Positions 1,991-36,190 of a stretch of 64,000 nt of DNA are shown piece by piece; the first letter of the stretch is position 1, and each line of letters starts with the position of its first letter. The translations under genes were made by a program, and so were the position numbers. The notes under the pieces were generated by a model. It searched no databases and was not told the origin of the DNA. It was given only the letters and a program-made list of their open reading frames with translations. The stretch comes from Nostoc foliaceum FACHB-393 (GTDB taxonomy: Bacteria > Cyanobacteriota > Cyanobacteriia > Cyanobacteriales > Nostocaceae): the NCBI RefSeq assembly GCF_014698505.1, contig NZ_JACJTD010000004.1, forward strand, positions 62,001 to 126,000, read 5' to 3'.

Positions 1991-3895
1991 TTAAAAGCCA
2001 CTTTCTGGAGTTTCTGTAGCATTAGGACTCTCTGTAGTAGCAGGTTGGTTAGTATTAGGAAGTTCTTCTTGGGTAGCCTTTTGATTACCTTGATTTTCTG
2101 GTTTAGGTAGTGCCTGTTTTGCCAGATTTTCGGCTGCTTGTTTAAATAATGGTTCTATTTTGTTTCGCCAGTATTTAGTATTAGGCAATTTTTCTGGATG
2201 GTTTCTATAATCTAAAACTTTATCCCATTTACCATCATCTATTGCTTTATTGATCTCATTAGATAACGCCTCTGCCTTAGCCCAATCTTCCTGCCACTGG
2301 GCAATCATTTTACCTGTCTCTTGAATACCAGAAGCAGCATTTGCCGGAATCGATCTTAAAAGTGCGATCGCTCCAACTATATCTCCTGATTCATACTTCT
2401 GTCTTGCTTGTTCTATAACATTGGCACTGTTATCACTAGGCTGCGATCGTTCTGTTTTCCCAGCGTCGGAAGTTGAACCATTTGGCTTTTCTGGTAATGG
2501 AGTTACTACATCCCTAGATTTTGGTTTTGCCTTGGGAGTTGGTCGAGTAGCAATCAGGGTACTATCATTTACTGTCTTAATTGCAATACCTTTTTCGCGC
2601 AGGCAAGAAGCCCATTCTCCATTATTGGTTATCACATCCGAGTGCGCCCAAGCCAAACGCCCAGAGTTAAGTTTAACTTCTATCCAACCCCGTTTTGTCC
2701 GTTTACCAGTCACCTCGAAACTGGTATTATCACCAACTGTTCGCACAATATTATCAGAATTTATCGAACTAGGTTCAGAACGAATATTAGAATTTCCGAC
2801 GACAACAGCCGAGCATTTATTTGCTAAGGTGCGATCGTTACCTGTAAGATTAAAGGCTAAATTTTTCACATTTGGATATATATTTGCTACCAAGGCAGCT
2901 GCACCACCCGCCAATAAGATGCCAATTAATATCGGCCATGGGTCGGATTTACTAGAGTCTTTACGCGCAGGTTTAGCGGGGACAGGATTTGCTGGTGCAA
3001 CTGCAACAGTTTGCAGCCCAGATACTTGAGGTCGGGATTTGGCAGATTCTTGAGGCGTGGAAAGTGCAGGTACAGGATTAATCGCGTCTTTACATGCTTG
3101 CAGTGCTTCCGTGGCATTTTGGTAGCGGTCTTTGAAGTGATAACGTACCATCTTGGACAACACTGCTGCCAGTCGATAGTTCACGGTTACTGATTGCTGC
3201 CAGATGATTTCGCCCGTGTCCGGGTCTTCTTGCAATTCTGTTGGCGATAATCCTGTTAATGCTTGAATGGCAATGATGCCGAGGGAATAGATATCACTGT
3301 TGGGGCGGGGTTTACCTTGCCCTTGTTCTGTAGGCATGTAGCCAGGAGTGCCAATAACTACTGTGGCAGAGGGTTGTGCGCCCACTGTTACCAGTTGTGT
3401 ACGTAACTGCTTTACTGCCCCAAAGTCTACTAAAACTAACTTATTATCTGAGGCGCGACGGATGATATTATCCGGTTTGATGTCGCGGTGAATCACGCCT
3501 TGGCGGTGGACAAATTCGAGAATTTCCAGAACTTGCTGTAACAGTTGAATTACTTGCCTTTCACTCCAGCGCTTACCAGGTATAAGTTCCTCAGCTAGGG
3601 TATGTCCTTCAATATATTCTTGTACTAAATAAAATTCTTGGTTTTCGTCAAAGTACGCTAGCAGCCTAGGTACTTGGTCATGGTTGCCCAATTTTTCTAA
3701 AGTTTCGGCTTCGCTGTTGAACAGGCGTTTAGCAGTATCAAAAACTCTGGGGTCAGTTCCGGGTTTAAGGTGCTTGACAACGCAAATGGGATTACCGGGC
3801 CGCCTAGTATCTTGGGCAATGTAGGTTTGACCAAATCCTCCCATTGCGAGGACTCGAATTACTTGGTAACGATGGTCTAGTAGCTTGCCTATCAT
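1991..3895 (-). CDS. Membrane-anchored serine/threonine protein kinase with SH3-like domain
   Basis: A Hanks-type kinase of about 634 residues. From an ATG at 3895 it shows a glycine-rich loop (GGFGQTY, about 19-25), the ATP-binding lysine (VVKHLKP, Lys41), the catalytic loop HRDIKPDN (about 136-143), DFG (157-159) and GTPGYMPTEQ (about 182). A linker leads to one membrane segment (WPILIGILLAGGAAALVANI), then an outer bacterial SH3-like domain (NIRSEPS, WIEVKL) and a charged, Pro/Asn-rich tail. GGGGAG lies five bases before the ATG, which favours this start over the GTG two codons upstream. Such kinases phosphorylate proteins on Ser/Thr in response to envelope signals; the substrate is unknown. 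Confidence 0.93.
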   Translation of the reverse strand: MIGKLLDHRYQVIRVLAMGGFGQTYIAQDTRRPGNPICVVKHLKPGTDPRVFDTAKRLFNSEAETLEKLGNHDQVPRLLAYFDENQEFYLVQEYIEGHTLAEELIPGKRWSERQVIQLLQQVLEILEFVHRQGVIHRDIKPDNIIRRASDNKLVLVDFGAVKQLRTQLVTVGAQPSATVVIGTPGYMPTEQGQGKPRPNSDIYSLGIIAIQALTGLSPTELQEDPDTGEIIWQQSVTVNYRLAAVLSKMVRYHFKDRYQNATEALQACKDAINPVPALSTPQESAKSRPQVSGLQTVAVAPANPVPAKPARKDSSKSDPWPILIGILLAGGAAALVANIYPNVKNLAFNLTGNDRTLANKCSAVVVGNSNIRSEPSSINSDNIVRTVGDNTSFEVTGKRTKRGWIEVKLNSGRLAWAHSDVITNNGEWASCLREKGIAIKTVNDSTLIATRPTPKAKPKSRDVVTPLPEKPNGSTSDAGKTERSQPSDNSANVIEQARQKYESGDIVGAIALLRSIPANAASGIQETGKMIAQWQEDWAKAEALSNEINKAIDDGKWDKVLDYRNHPEKLPNTKYWRNKIEPLFKQAAENLAKQALPKPENQGNQKATQEELPNTNQPATTESPNATETPESGF

Positions 3896-4058
3896 GTTCA
3901 CTCCCCAGAGTTATTACCTAATTTTCCAGCTGGTAATAAATATCTCCAAATTTTCTTCAATGAAATCCGCTATCTTGAGAAAAGATTTAGATTAAAAACG
4001 CAGCTTTTTAATAAACGCAGACTGTTTATTTTTCTTTTAGTGCCCCTGTTTACTACCA

Positions 4059-4547
4059 ATGCCACCTAAAATAACAAACTCAGTTGCATGGCAGCAGGCT
4101 GAAATCCTCATGCAACCTGCTTTCATTCGCGTTATCGACAATATCCGCAAGTCCCTTGATGAATCTTCCTGGACGGGAACTTACCACGATGTTCTGATTT
4201 GGCCGCCTAGCACCACTGATGAAATCAAAGCATTGGTGACTGAGTTGTTGCAAGGAATGGAAACTGCAACACCCCAAGAAGCAGATAAAATCAGAGAAAC
4301 TCTTGCTCGTTTGCCAATGCCCCATCCAGGATATCATCTACGTTTGCAGCGTCAACAGCAAGAAGCTAGTATCGATTTATGGGAATTGTGTTATCAAGTG
4401 TGTTTTCTTGAATACACCCCAGAGAGGGAAGTTGCTGTTATTGATACTAGTTTAATTGATGAAGTGGGTGAAGTGGATTGGCTGCATTTGGATGCTAAGG
4501 CAAAGGAGTTAGTTGAGCAGGCGTTTGCTAGTTTACCAGAGAGTTGA
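4059..4547 (+). CDS. Conserved-looking hypothetical protein
   Basis: A soluble 162-residue protein with no signal peptide or membrane segment. It is rich in Glu and Leu, mostly helical by composition, and contains no catalytic motif I can name. The N-terminal part (about 10-60) and the stretch around HPGYHLRLQRQQQEA (about 92-106) look like the best-ordered parts. It is transcribed away from the kinase gene across a 160-bp gap, so the two may share a promoter region. I do not recognise its family. Confidence 0.75.
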   Translation: MPPKITNSVAWQQAEILMQPAFIRVIDNIRKSLDESSWTGTYHDVLIWPPSTTDEIKALVTELLQGMETATPQEADKIRETLARLPMPHPGYHLRLQRQQQEASIDLWELCYQVCFLEYTPEREVAVIDTSLIDEVGEVDWLHLDAKAKELVEQAFASLPES

Positions 4548-4988: not shown

Positions 4989-5155
4989 CATCTTACTCTA
5001 AGTAAGAATCACCATACTTTTATGACACCTTAGATCGCTAATTCTTGAGCTATAGCACCTAAGCTACACTCTCAGGCATCAGAACCACTATACTCTGGTT
5101 CCTATCAACAGAGTTTTTGTGCTTTCAATAAACTTTGCAACACAAATTTACAATC

Positions 5156-33501: not shown

Positions 33502-33546
33502 AGGTCGGACAACTGTTCGACTTGCGCCTACCAAGCTATCCGACCT
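33502..33546. other. Inverted repeat beyond the template repeat
   Basis: AGGTCGGA and TCCGACCT, perfect 8-bp arms separated by 29 bases. It lies about 115 bp beyond the TR core, in the part that would be inside a DGR template transcript. No function is established. Confidence 0.5.
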
Positions 33547-33660
33547 GGTTTTATTTTCGGACAAAGTTATCTCTGTCGCCGGAACAGGTCTGGACTCTTC
33601 TGGGTACGCCCGAACAATTCCCATTGTCCAGTTCTGACAGTAGAAGAGTGCTGGAAAAAC

Positions 33661-33768
33661 CGAACACACAACCCGAAAACCGATATTGTTGTTGCGGTAG
33701 GCGGGAGAGTTATAGTTGCGGTTGGCAGCGCGACAGTTCGCCGGATTATTGTTCCAGGAACCGCCCCG
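33661..33768 (-). repeat. Template repeat (TR) of a diversity-generating retroelement
   Basis: A 108-bp non-coding copy of the 3' end of the TIR-FGE gene, offset by exactly 301 bp and without gaps. On the coding strand it reads with AAC or AAT at almost every variable codon (SWNNNPANC, NRNYN, YRNNN). It differs from the VR at 15 positions; 12 of these are adenines in the TR (12 of 23 adenines changed, against 3 of 85 other bases). The TR has TCG where the VR has the stop TAG. Weaker similarity continues for about 25 bases beyond the stop. Confidence 0.92.
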
Positions 33769-33874
33769 TTTACCGATGCCTGTCCCAAAAAACTATTGTA
33801 GGAGTTAGTTACCTTTGGGAGGAATCGCGCAATATTTATTGATGGCGAATGAAAATATAGAAAAAATTTTTGAA

Positions 33875-33887
33875 CGCGCTTCGCGCG
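33875..33887. other. Small perfect hairpin between TR and VR
   Basis: CGCGC-TTC-GCGCG (loop GAA on the minus strand), 75 bases past the stop codon of the VR gene and followed on the minus strand by TTCAAAAATTTTTT. It could be the terminator of the target gene, or the counterpart of the hairpin that aids target recognition next to the VR in some DGRs. Confidence 0.5.
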
Positions 33888-33961
33888 AAAGAAGGGTAAA
33901 AAATAAAGAGTAGAGGGCAAAAGAGCAAGAGAGTAAAGGGCTACAAGAGTCCTGGGAAAAC

Positions 33962-34069
33962 CTAACACACAACCCGAAAACCGACATTGTCGTCGCGGAC
34001 GGCGGGAGAGACATAGAAGCGGGTGGCAGCGCCACAGTACGCCGGATTATCGATCCAGGAACCGCCCCG
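33962..34069 (-). repeat. Variable repeat (VR) of the DGR, inside the TIR-FGE gene
   Basis: The last 36 codons of the gene, including the stop. Compared with the TR it changes residues 713, 714, 718, 720, 723, 725, 727, 731, 733, 734 and 736, mostly Asn in the template to Ile, Asp, Tyr, Thr, Phe, Val or Asp. The final GFRVVC codons are unchanged, as expected for the invariant end of a VR. The changed residues lie in the C-terminal strands and loops that form the ligand-binding face in known DGR lectin folds. Confidence 0.92.
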
Positions 34070-36190
34070 AACTATCCGTTTTTCACTATTTCCATTCACT
34101 GTCCAAGCTGTGCCATCAGTGGGCGCACTTACATAATTGTCATGCCAGTGATCGGCACACCACTCCCAAACATTGCCGTGCATATCGTACAAACCGAAAG
34201 CATTAGGCAAGTAGCTGCCCACAGAAGCCGTTTCTCCACCAAACATAGTGAGTAAAGCCATACCTAAATTAGCTTTACACGGAGCCAGTTTTGGTGTCAA
34301 AGTCTCTCCAAAATAGAATTCAGTCGTTGTTCCGGCTCGACAGGCATATTCCCATTCGGCTTCGCTGGGCAAGCGGTATGAATGCCCCGTCACAACAGAC
34401 AAGCGCTGACAAAATTCCACAGCTTCATCCCAAGAGACTTTTTCCACGGGGCGGCTATCTCCCTTGAAACGTGAAGGTTGGGCATTGAGCGCGATCTTAA
34501 CTTGGGGTAGAGCCGCAACCGCCCGCCATTGTGCTTGAGTAACAGGATATTTCCCAATCAAGAAAGCTAGCACTCTAACAGTATGTTGAGGCTTCTCATT
34601 ATTGTCTCCTTTACCCTCCGGTGAACCCATCTGAAAGGCTCCCGATGGAATTTTAACCATCTCTAGCAACACCCCTTTACCCAAGTTTTCAGAGAAAAAC
34701 TCTGCTGCCTTCCTAGTGCGGCTGTTTTCGTTACCTTGTTTGTCAAAAGTAATGACATCAAACTGAAAACGCTGCAATTTAGTATCTGCGCTGTTTTGAG
34801 GGCTGGAGGCTTGACTACTTGATGCTTTTTCTTGAGCTTTATGCTTTGCTTCTGCTTGCTTACGTTGCTCCAATTCTATTTGTCGTTGCCGCTCTGCTTC
34901 TGCTTGCTGCTTCAGTTTTTCCTGATACCTTGCCTCTGCTGGTTCACGAATCGACCGCTCAATTTGGGCAAAATCTTCATTCTTAAGTCCCAATTGCTGC
35001 TGAAAGTTTCTCAACCCCTCTACAACAGGCTGACTGAGTGGATATTCTACTTCAACGACTCTAGAAAATTCCTGCCTATAACGCTGTAATTTGGCTTCGT
35101 ACTCCTTCAGTTTTTCCTGATACCTTGCCTCTGCTGGTTCACGAATCGACCGCTCAATTTGGGCAAAATCTCCATTCTTAAGTCCCAATTGCTGCCGAAA
35201 GTTTTTCAACCCTTCTACAACAGGCTGACTGAGTGGATATTCTACTTGAACGGCTCTGGAAAATTCTTCTCTATAACGCTGTAACTTAGCTTCATACTCC
35301 TCTTGCTGCCGACGCTGCTCTAGCGACTTTAGTTGCTCGACTTCAAGCTGGTTTCTTTTACCTTGATAATCTAACTCAGCTTGGTCAAGAATTGGCTTTG
35401 AAATTCGAGCGACATCTTCAGGCTTTAGCCCCAAATCTCTTTGACGATTTTCCAGATCCTTCTCAATCTCTTCGCTGAAAGGATAATAACCCTTCTCAAT
35501 TAACTTGTTGAGTGTTTGCTTATATTTATTCAGGTTTTCTACAACTCTGCTGTAAGGCTCATACGCACGAGTTTCGATTTCCTTTGCCTCTTCTGGCGTT
35601 AAACCCAGCGATTCTCGAAGTTCGTCTAACGTGTCTCGTTCCACAATGGAAATTACGCCGTCAGAAAGAACCTCTTCAACCTTTTGCAGATACTGTGCTT
35701 GAATTACCTGTTTCTGCTCTGCTAGCTGCTTACGGTAGTCCAGCATTTGCTTGGCTGCTGTTCTGATGCCTTGTGTCACAGTCACAAAGGCTTCATCCCG
35801 GTTTTCCCAGCTTGTTACGGCTTTGGCATCTTTAGGAAAGGCTTGTAGCTTGGCAAAAGGTGCATCAAACCAGTCAAATGGGCGCAGAATGACTGGAACG
35901 ACATACGCCTGTTTTGACTCATGCCGTTGTAACGCCATCGGAATTTCAATGTCACGGCAGTATTTGGAGGCAATAAAGTCTGGGCTAATCAGTAATAGGA
36001 TAATATCAGCAGACTCAAGCTCAGTCTTAATCTTGTCATCCCATTCTGTTCCGGCTGTAAGTTGGCGATCGTACCAGCTAGAGATAATGCCTTGCCATTG
36101 CAGGTTACTCAAATGAGTTGCAAGACTATCTCGCAAGTGTTCGTCTTTGTGGGAGTAGGAAATAAAAACTCTAACTGCGTCCTCTGCCAT
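33962..36190 (-). CDS. TIR-domain protein with C-terminal FGE/C-type-lectin domain, DGR target
   Basis: 742 residues. An N-terminal TIR domain (about 5-140: VRVFISYSHKDEHLRDSL, LLLISPDFIASKYCRDIE with Cys78 and Glu82, the latter at the place of the catalytic Glu of NAD-cleaving TIRs) is followed by helical coiled-coil repeats (about 145-465), of which two units of 66 residues are near-identical in tandem. The last part (about 511-742) is a formylglycine-generating-enzyme/sulfatase-modifying domain (IPSGAFQMGS, YRLPSEAEWEYACRAG, GLYDMHGNVWEWCAD, GFRVVC). Residues 708-742 are the variable region. The protein is probably a cytoplasmic sensor whose ligand-binding face is diversified; what it binds is unknown. 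Confidence 0.93.
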   Translation of the reverse strand: MAEDAVRVFISYSHKDEHLRDSLATHLSNLQWQGIISSWYDRQLTAGTEWDDKIKTELESADIILLLISPDFIASKYCRDIEIPMALQRHESKQAYVVPVILRPFDWFDAPFAKLQAFPKDAKAVTSWENRDEAFVTVTQGIRTAAKQMLDYRKQLAEQKQVIQAQYLQKVEEVLSDGVISIVERDTLDELRESLGLTPEEAKEIETRAYEPYSRVVENLNKYKQTLNKLIEKGYYPFSEEIEKDLENRQRDLGLKPEDVARISKPILDQAELDYQGKRNQLEVEQLKSLEQRRQQEEYEAKLQRYREEFSRAVQVEYPLSQPVVEGLKNFRQQLGLKNGDFAQIERSIREPAEARYQEKLKEYEAKLQRYRQEFSRVVEVEYPLSQPVVEGLRNFQQQLGLKNEDFAQIERSIREPAEARYQEKLKQQAEAERQRQIELEQRKQAEAKHKAQEKASSSQASSPQNSADTKLQRFQFDVITFDKQGNENSRTRKAAEFFSENLGKGVLLEMVKIPSGAFQMGSPEGKGDNNEKPQHTVRVLAFLIGKYPVTQAQWRAVAALPQVKIALNAQPSRFKGDSRPVEKVSWDEAVEFCQRLSVVTGHSYRLPSEAEWEYACRAGTTTEFYFGETLTPKLAPCKANLGMALLTMFGGETASVGSYLPNAFGLYDMHGNVWEWCADHWHDNYVSAPTDGTAWTVNGNSEKRIVRGGSWIDNPAYCGAATRFYVSPAVRDDNVGFRVVC

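Follow-up and report, generated by a model that had tools for sequence, protein, structure and literature searches.

How a variable gene tail and its apparent template came to bear the adenine-specific differences of a diversity-generating retroelement (DGR), with no reverse transcriptase (RT) encoded beside them, is the question raised by a locus of Nostoc foliaceum FACHB-393, analyzed here within a stretch of 64,000 nucleotides (the window; positions 62001-126000 of contig C112). On the minus strand, a variable repeat (VR; 33962..34069), which makes up the last 35 codons and the stop codon of a TIR-FGE gene, is followed by a template repeat (TR; 33661..33768), recognized by TR-VR comparison and lying outside the gene. 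An earlier note, made from the sequence alone, had described the two copies as aligning without gaps over 108 bases at a 301-bp offset and as differing at 15 positions, with 12 of the 23 TR adenines but only 3 of the 85 other TR bases altered; the coordinates and all of these counts were reproduced exactly. The adenines of the distal copy are enriched among the differences (hypergeometric p = 1.6e-7); the remaining bases of that copy and all bases of the VR copy show no such excess (p of 0.14 or more). Because only the adenines of the distal copy are over-represented, the direction of change is from TR to VR. The repeat extends 20 bases beyond the end of the gene, to 128 nt with 86% identity. 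The window locus bears the adenine mark of a DGR.

At the codon level, 11 codons and the stop codon (TCG in the TR, TAG in the VR) are altered. The AAC and AAT triplets that had been described at the variable codons were confirmed, with a TR adenine—mostly within AAC or AAT—involved in 10 of the 11, and with R720G, a C-to-G change, as the single exception. As to the constant framework that had been claimed, GFRVVC and GGSW are identical in both copies, but the reported "CP" could not be located; NP, SP, and one C are unaltered. Furthermore, of the three non-adenine differences, one probably hides a former adenine: TR position 69 is T in the window but A in 15 of the 16 other aligned TRs, and the corresponding base is A in the orthologous VRs of two related genomes (G004 and G015), so that this position was probably once an adenine and an A-to-T change in the window TR since its last rewriting is probable. 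Non-adenine mismatches in the pair amount to 5 of 100, namely one systematic IMH difference, one probable later change in the TR, and three cases of plain VR drift; against the yardstick of G004, this drift is only weakly low (P(<=5|9.4) = 0.09; P(<=4|9.4) = 0.04).

The TIR-FGE gene (33962..36190, minus strand) encodes a protein of 742 aa, as defined by its ORF, Pfam domains, and fold. An N-terminal TIR domain (residues 8-116; 35843..36169, minus strand; PF13676, E = 7.4e-17) is followed by a coiled-coil-looking middle region and a C-terminal FGE-sulfatase domain of the C-type lectin fold (residues 510-741; 33968..34663, minus strand; assigned by PF03781, E = 2e-56, and by fold), and the VR forms the C-terminus of the latter. 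The C-terminal 263 residues were modeled with AlphaFold from 48 aligned sequences (alignment A2, the window protein and 47 of 106 listed relatives), with a pLDDT of 86.7. The model matches TvpA (2y3c), the variable protein 1 of Treponema denticola and a DGR product of solved structure, with a Z of 30.5 and an rmsd of 1.9 over 224 aligned residues, with PvdO ranking above TvpA (Z 31.7); the corresponding values are Z 13.7 and rmsd 3.9 over 197 residues for Thermus TaqVP, and Z 12.8 and rmsd 4.5 over 160 residues for phage Mtd. When aligned with the Treponema protein, the window end RGGSW..GFRVVC falls on RGGSW..GFRLAC. In the middle of the TIR-FGE protein, a 195-bp tandem duplication (34900-35289) was observed, in frame and 92% identical. 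The neighbors of the locus are guaA-like, cbiD-like, and photolyase-like genes, together with a small ORF.

The enzyme expected of such an element is not encoded here. No match to the RVT_1 model occurs in positions 62001-126000 of C112, the nearest matches on this contig lying 128 kb further on and having the group II intron motif, and a tblastn search with a DGR RT across 24-44 kb of the window gave only a 10-residue hit (E = 8.9). A search of the contig with the bAvd of locus L070 likewise yielded no Avd. The adenine bias alone would point to a complete cis DGR with an overlooked RT, but the RVT_1 and tblastn searches rule out this reading, to which we attach practically no probability. The window locus is not a complete DGR, because RT and Avd are both absent in cis; the DGR interpretation of the earlier note thus holds for the TR, the VR, the adenine-specific change, and the lectin-fold target, but not for a complete element.

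To judge from the sequence, the window locus nevertheless retains the cis elements required by an RT, since an RT-14 spacer, IMH-like ends, and a stem-loop were all found. The 3′ spacer of the TR-RNA (33502..33650, minus strand) is assigned by covariance model and covariation to the structured Rfam RT-14 RNA (RF02921), passing narrowly (48.2 bits against a gathering threshold of 48.1) over positions 1-144 of the 144 in the model. The name of this RNA family refers to nearness to RTs; here, the full-length match just above threshold is found without an adjoining RT. In an alignment of 28 of 32 trimmed spacers (A1), the consensus fold has 33 pairs, 14 of them with compensatory change, and 98.6% of the cells pair, compared with 30-51% when the partners are slid. 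The covariation score was reached by 0 of 500 shuffles; two of the five covariation measures do not stand out from the shuffles, which were as high in 7/500 for pairs with both sides altered and in 125/500 for further pair types.

On the minus strand, the VR runs into an IMH-like end (..CCAGGACTCTTGTAGCCC; 33938..33961), identified by sequence and by comparison with a related locus on contig C100, and the TR into an IMH*-like end (..CCAGCACTCTTCTA; 33641..33660), identified by sequence. The VR end reads CAGGACT and the TR end CAGCACT, a contrast like that at the C100 locus (CAGGACT in the VR, CAGTACT in the TR). Downstream of the VR lies a G+C stem-loop (CGCGCGAAGCGCG; 33875..33887, minus strand), comparable to that 3′ of the IMH in BPP-1; the IMH and stem-loop of the window VR are both sequence-level assignments. 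A stem with at least five G-C pairs is found in 18 of 32 VR flanks (3/11 cis and 15/21 RT-less), compared with 2.6% of 2000 random stretches. A promoter scan gave two candidate sites where 0.8 would be expected, neither of which lies upstream of the TR on the minus strand. The BPP-1 DGR is one autonomous phage locus with the order avd-TR-brt, whereas the window cassette is without RT and Avd. BPP-1 is alike in having IMH and IMH*, a stem-loop after the IMH, and, 3′ of the TR, a structured spacer that recruits RT-Avd (PMC12875486).

Other DGR parts were found elsewhere in the same genome (8.87 Mb searched, 177 contigs). Of nine RVT_1 matches, one alone (L007) has the DGR motif IGNLTSQ, seven have the QGxxxSP motif of group II introns, and the last (L009) has neither that motif nor a DGR RT match. 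The single DGR-type RT found lies on contig C100 in an open frame of 359 residues, with a TIR-FGE target upstream and its own TR downstream, and the C100 VR has 15 of the 25 adenines of this TR altered and none of its 100 other bases. The window spacer is 80% identical to the C100 spacer (149 nt), and the flank following the window VR 87% identical to its C100 counterpart (66 nt). Between VR and RT on C100, avd (L023 6764-7121) is split into two frames, which could reflect a genuine break or an assembly error; at this position, L070 has a single 118-residue bAvd (PF22296), and PF22296 bAvd sits between VR and RT in L070 and L073. The L070 bAvd matches this genome only at C100 (the split copy) and C102 (a fragment), and no intact avd was found in the genome. 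On C102, a third TIR-FGE gene (L025 2899-4494) has a VR with a 22-base gap relative to the C100 TR, and over a 73-base part, 10 of the 15 adenines are altered, as is a single other base; after the gap, this gene reads on out of frame, with the avd fragment behind it. A 3′ part of an RT-14 spacer stands as an orphan on contig C176 (L123, about position 5078), with no FGE or DGR RT match within the fetched stretch.

The best explanation of the window locus, and one that we hold to be rather probable, is a non-autonomous (RT-less) DGR cassette with its own TR and RNA scaffold, upon which an RT acts in trans. In such a cassette, the TR would be transcribed, and the RT-14 spacer would be bound by a DGR RT, or RT-Avd, from another locus—in this genome, one of the C100 type. 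Adenines would then be miscopied, and the cDNA would replace the VR as far as the IMH. We infer this action in trans on the window TR from the adenine bias, the RT-14 spacer, the C100-like flanks, the VRs of orthologous loci, the VR-TR spacing, and concerted change of VRs and TRs, the last three of which are considered below. Counting against it are the drift of the window pair, an even outcome of the concerted-change test at one set of loci, the split avd, and three genomes (G027, G143, and G162) without a match to the DGR RT; nothing observed points directly to trans activity on the window TR.

RT-less pairs recur across the Nostocaceae. A sequence pattern derived from alignment A1, for which the control gave 0 in every genome, gave 100 occurrences in the 217 Nostocaceae genomes, distributed over 71 of them, and 60 of the 217 have a DGR RT match (E<=1e-30); as the pattern derives from one spacer family, the spacer count is not a census of all DGRs. 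A whole-genome RF02921 search, with filters that proved too strict, matched only 4 of the 217 genomes, 3 of them above the cut-off, and failed to recover the Nostoc foliaceum genome itself; this count was not used. Within 4 kb of the 100 spacers, an RT match of at least 300 residues was found for 25, a shorter one for 5, and none for 70. A few of the latter sit close to the end of a contig, which may have truncated an RT; for 20 of these 70, the genome has an RT match of at least 300 residues at another place, and for 50 it has none. An RT-first search would therefore miss such cassettes.

Among 82 loci examined, 77 hold the spacer pattern, and these comprise 9 TR/VR pairs with a cis RT, 23 RT-less pairs, and 45 loci without a pair. 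Two RT-less pairs were dropped before the statistics, namely L127 (996-bp offset and 21/149 non-adenine mismatches, resembling tandem paralogs) and L147 (only 42 nt). The offset between VR and TR is 301-327 bp in 17 of the remaining 21, and 383, 387, 445, and 541 bp in the others, compared with 1.7-2.1 kb in the cis pairs, in which second VRs lie at 2.7 kb. Seven of the 21 (L081, L134, L139, L144, L148, L150, and L157) have no non-adenine mismatch, three of them in genomes with an RT match of at least 300 residues elsewhere; at the other extreme, L079, L080, and L153 have 10 to 14. Outside this spacer family, one locus among 79 FGE relatives in named genomes (L188) is also an RT-less pair, at 372 bp, with 16 of its 29 adenines altered and none of the 96 other bases.

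Fifteen of the 45 pairless loci are VR-spacer fusions, in which the end of the FGE gene leads directly into the spacer and the TR is lost (L085, L091, L094, L096, L097, L099, L102, L126, L130, L137, L138, L143, L154, L158, and L159); these look as if VR/TR recombination had frozen one variant. The 13 loci situated at ndhJ-ndhK comprise seven intact pairs, five fusions, and L098, which is without a TR, and no RT was found at any of them in the fetched stretch.

The main competitor is that the window once held a normal cis DGR, from which RT and Avd were deleted and whose last cis rewriting is preserved, with no trans activity at all; we regard such a fossil as rather unlikely, but as deserving serious weight. 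Precedent comes from L164 (Leptolyngbyaceae), which keeps TIR-FGE, VR, TR, and spacer with its RT reduced to a 24-residue match (E = 2e-6). At this locus (2600-4300), other DNA and palindromic repeats replace most of the RT, and the remnant precedes the TR. In the same direction point the drift of the window VR and TR, the loss of the TR in the fusions (15 of the 77 loci), and the loss of parts at orthologous loci. At the cbiD-guaA place, G004 and G015 retain the VR, followed by a homologous interval as far as the start of the TR, where a deletion has cut TR and spacer; G023 retains a spacer remnant with the last 26 TR bases and G028 a spacer remnant only, so that none of these four loci keeps a whole TR. 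None has a significant RT match (best E, 0.24). Against a fossil, however, stand the VRs of the three species that share the RT-less VR-TR interval, which is 193 bp long in the window, roughly 171 bp in G004, and 194 bp in G015. These VRs are adenine-divergent: compared pairwise, they differ at 13, 14, and 12 of the 23 positions with a TR adenine and at 8, 12, and 14 of the 85 others (Fisher p = 4.8e-6, 1.7e-5, and 8.8e-4, respectively). Adenine-biased change therefore continued after the lineages parted, although a lost RT may formerly have lain outside the shared interval, much as an RT stands upstream of a VR in L180 (Elainella). Also against a fossil are the recurrence of tight VR-TR spacing across many species and the finding that VRs follow their own TRs in 15 RT-less cassettes.

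These 15 cassettes, 11 of which have a caspase domain, are homologous in their RT-less interval, with pairwise identities of 66-94% and a median of 85%. At non-adenine site-pairs at which the TRs diverge, the VR equals its own TR in 890 of 1110, the VRs match each other in 113, and neither holds in 107; the site-pairs, which fall in 36 columns, are not independent, and the concerted share was reached by 0 of 2000 random re-pairings. Limited to seven cassettes at the ndh locus, the test was even (20 versus 20, with 1 other). The window interval is not homologous to these, its TR-proximal identity to the 15 having a median of 36% against 29% for a shuffled control; the concerted-change evidence therefore applies to the window by analogy, and the window interval being of another lineage, RT-less compaction arose more than once. 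Non-adenine mismatches number 8/947 in cis pairs (nine and L071, with one VR each taken for the two-VR loci L078 and L084), and, in RT-less pairs, 10/654 with an RT elsewhere in the genome, 10/405 with an RT fragment, and 49/975 with no RT. The association of RT presence with low drift in RT-less pairs (10/654 versus 49/975) is not significant (p = 0.23).

Of the two remaining alternatives, one keeps the action in trans but has the RT encoded on a plasmid or contig that the assembly lacks instead of on C100. Perfect RT-less pairs are indeed found in three genomes (G027, G143, and G162) that have no DGR RT match at E<=1e-30—their other RVT_1 matches including, in G027, one of group II type by motif—and parts of the window stretch are matched by 24 cyanobacterial plasmid records. 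In these three genomes, the RT may have been lost very recently or may lie on an unassembled plasmid, or the pairs may be fossils. For the window, however, the genome itself encodes a DGR-type RT, in an open reading frame of 359 residues, together with a spacer like that of the window, and a missing plasmid is accordingly judged improbable. The other alternative, ordinary divergence of a duplicated gene tail without any retroelement, would account for two tandem copies of the 3′ end of a gene but not for differences concentrated on one base of one copy, the RT-14 RNA after the TR, or the pairs with an adenine bias, of differing purity, that were found at 9 cis loci and at 20 further RT-less ones; it is ruled out by the adenine bias and carries hardly any probability, in agreement with the statement of the earlier note that the pattern is unlike such divergence.

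For the non-autonomous cassette with an RT acting in trans, past activity at the window locus is likely and present activity unlikely. The window copy is probably dormant, because the two repeats have accumulated drift since the VR was last rewritten and because no avd other than the broken one was found. Of the earlier wording that the last 35 residues "are, or were" diversified, which was fair, the evidence favors "were", with the RT acting from elsewhere.

Individual RT-less sites are already in print (PMC7517822; PMC4372165; PMC10907252). The clade-5 cyanobacterial DGRs are alike in having FGE/C-type lectin targets, adenine-specific TR/VR differences, and TIR-like domains among the N-termini of targets; their survey differs in requiring an RT for a DGR call and in taking all3226 of PCC 7120 as a remnant, whereas the RT-less pairs described here form a recurrent class with tight spacing and concerted VR-TR change (Vallota-Eastman et al., 2020; PMC7517822). 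The partial DGRs of DUSEL4 Nanoarchaeota likewise combine RT-less sites with adenine-directed change, and their authors pose the choice between fossils and remote diversification and leave it undecided; two of them consist of target, VR, and cis elements only, whereas the window keeps a private TR and an RNA scaffold (Paul et al., 2015; PMC4372165). In Thiohalocapsa PB-PSB1, degenerate loci similarly lack machinery, and trans diversification was inferred where a VR matches the TR of another locus, so that its trans targets use the TR of another DGR, unlike the private TR of the window; variation at the disrupted loci 3 and 7 was ascribed to intact structural variants or earlier activity (PMC10907252). 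Studies of related organisms report low adenine variation in culture and highly expressed TR-RNA in Nostoc punctiforme (PMC12691664), and a strong start site that may yield DGR RNA in Nodularia spumigena (PMC3610870). No description of a recurrent class of RT-less cassettes with their own templates was found in the literature searched, outside which most subscription journals lay.

Whether cassettes of about 0.6 kb, rewritten in trans by one shared RT-Avd, form a class of satellites in cyanobacteria is a proposal for and against which we see the balance as about equal. Such a class, if true, would combine a VR, a private template, and an RT-14 scaffold behind a sensor gene, spreading and evolving without an RT; one enzyme would diversify many sensors, with a separate template for each, and if the shared enzyme were lost, all cassettes would be frozen together. 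Being compact, RT-less, and provided with their own templates, and in several cases pristine, these cassettes are natural cases for deciding between fossil and remote diversification. DGR targets of multicellular cyanobacteria have been interpreted as immune sensors in two reports (PMC10907252; PMC7159879), and the targets found here, with TIR or caspase domains and a lectin fold, look like such sensors, from which we infer that TIR-FGE may be a self-diversifying TIR immune sensor.

Two minor observations concern the surroundings of such loci. Similar-looking small proteins, two of which (L025 2035-2454 and L081 4109-4477) have no Pfam match, are found near three FGE loci, the third being L083 (6282-6647). 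In Elainella (L180, 1500-4600), the order is VR1 - RT - VR2 - TR, with one TR fitting both VRs at offsets of 2957 and 306 bp and with the RT upstream of the VR at 306 bp; loss of the upstream part of such a layout is a possible source of the compact arrangement.
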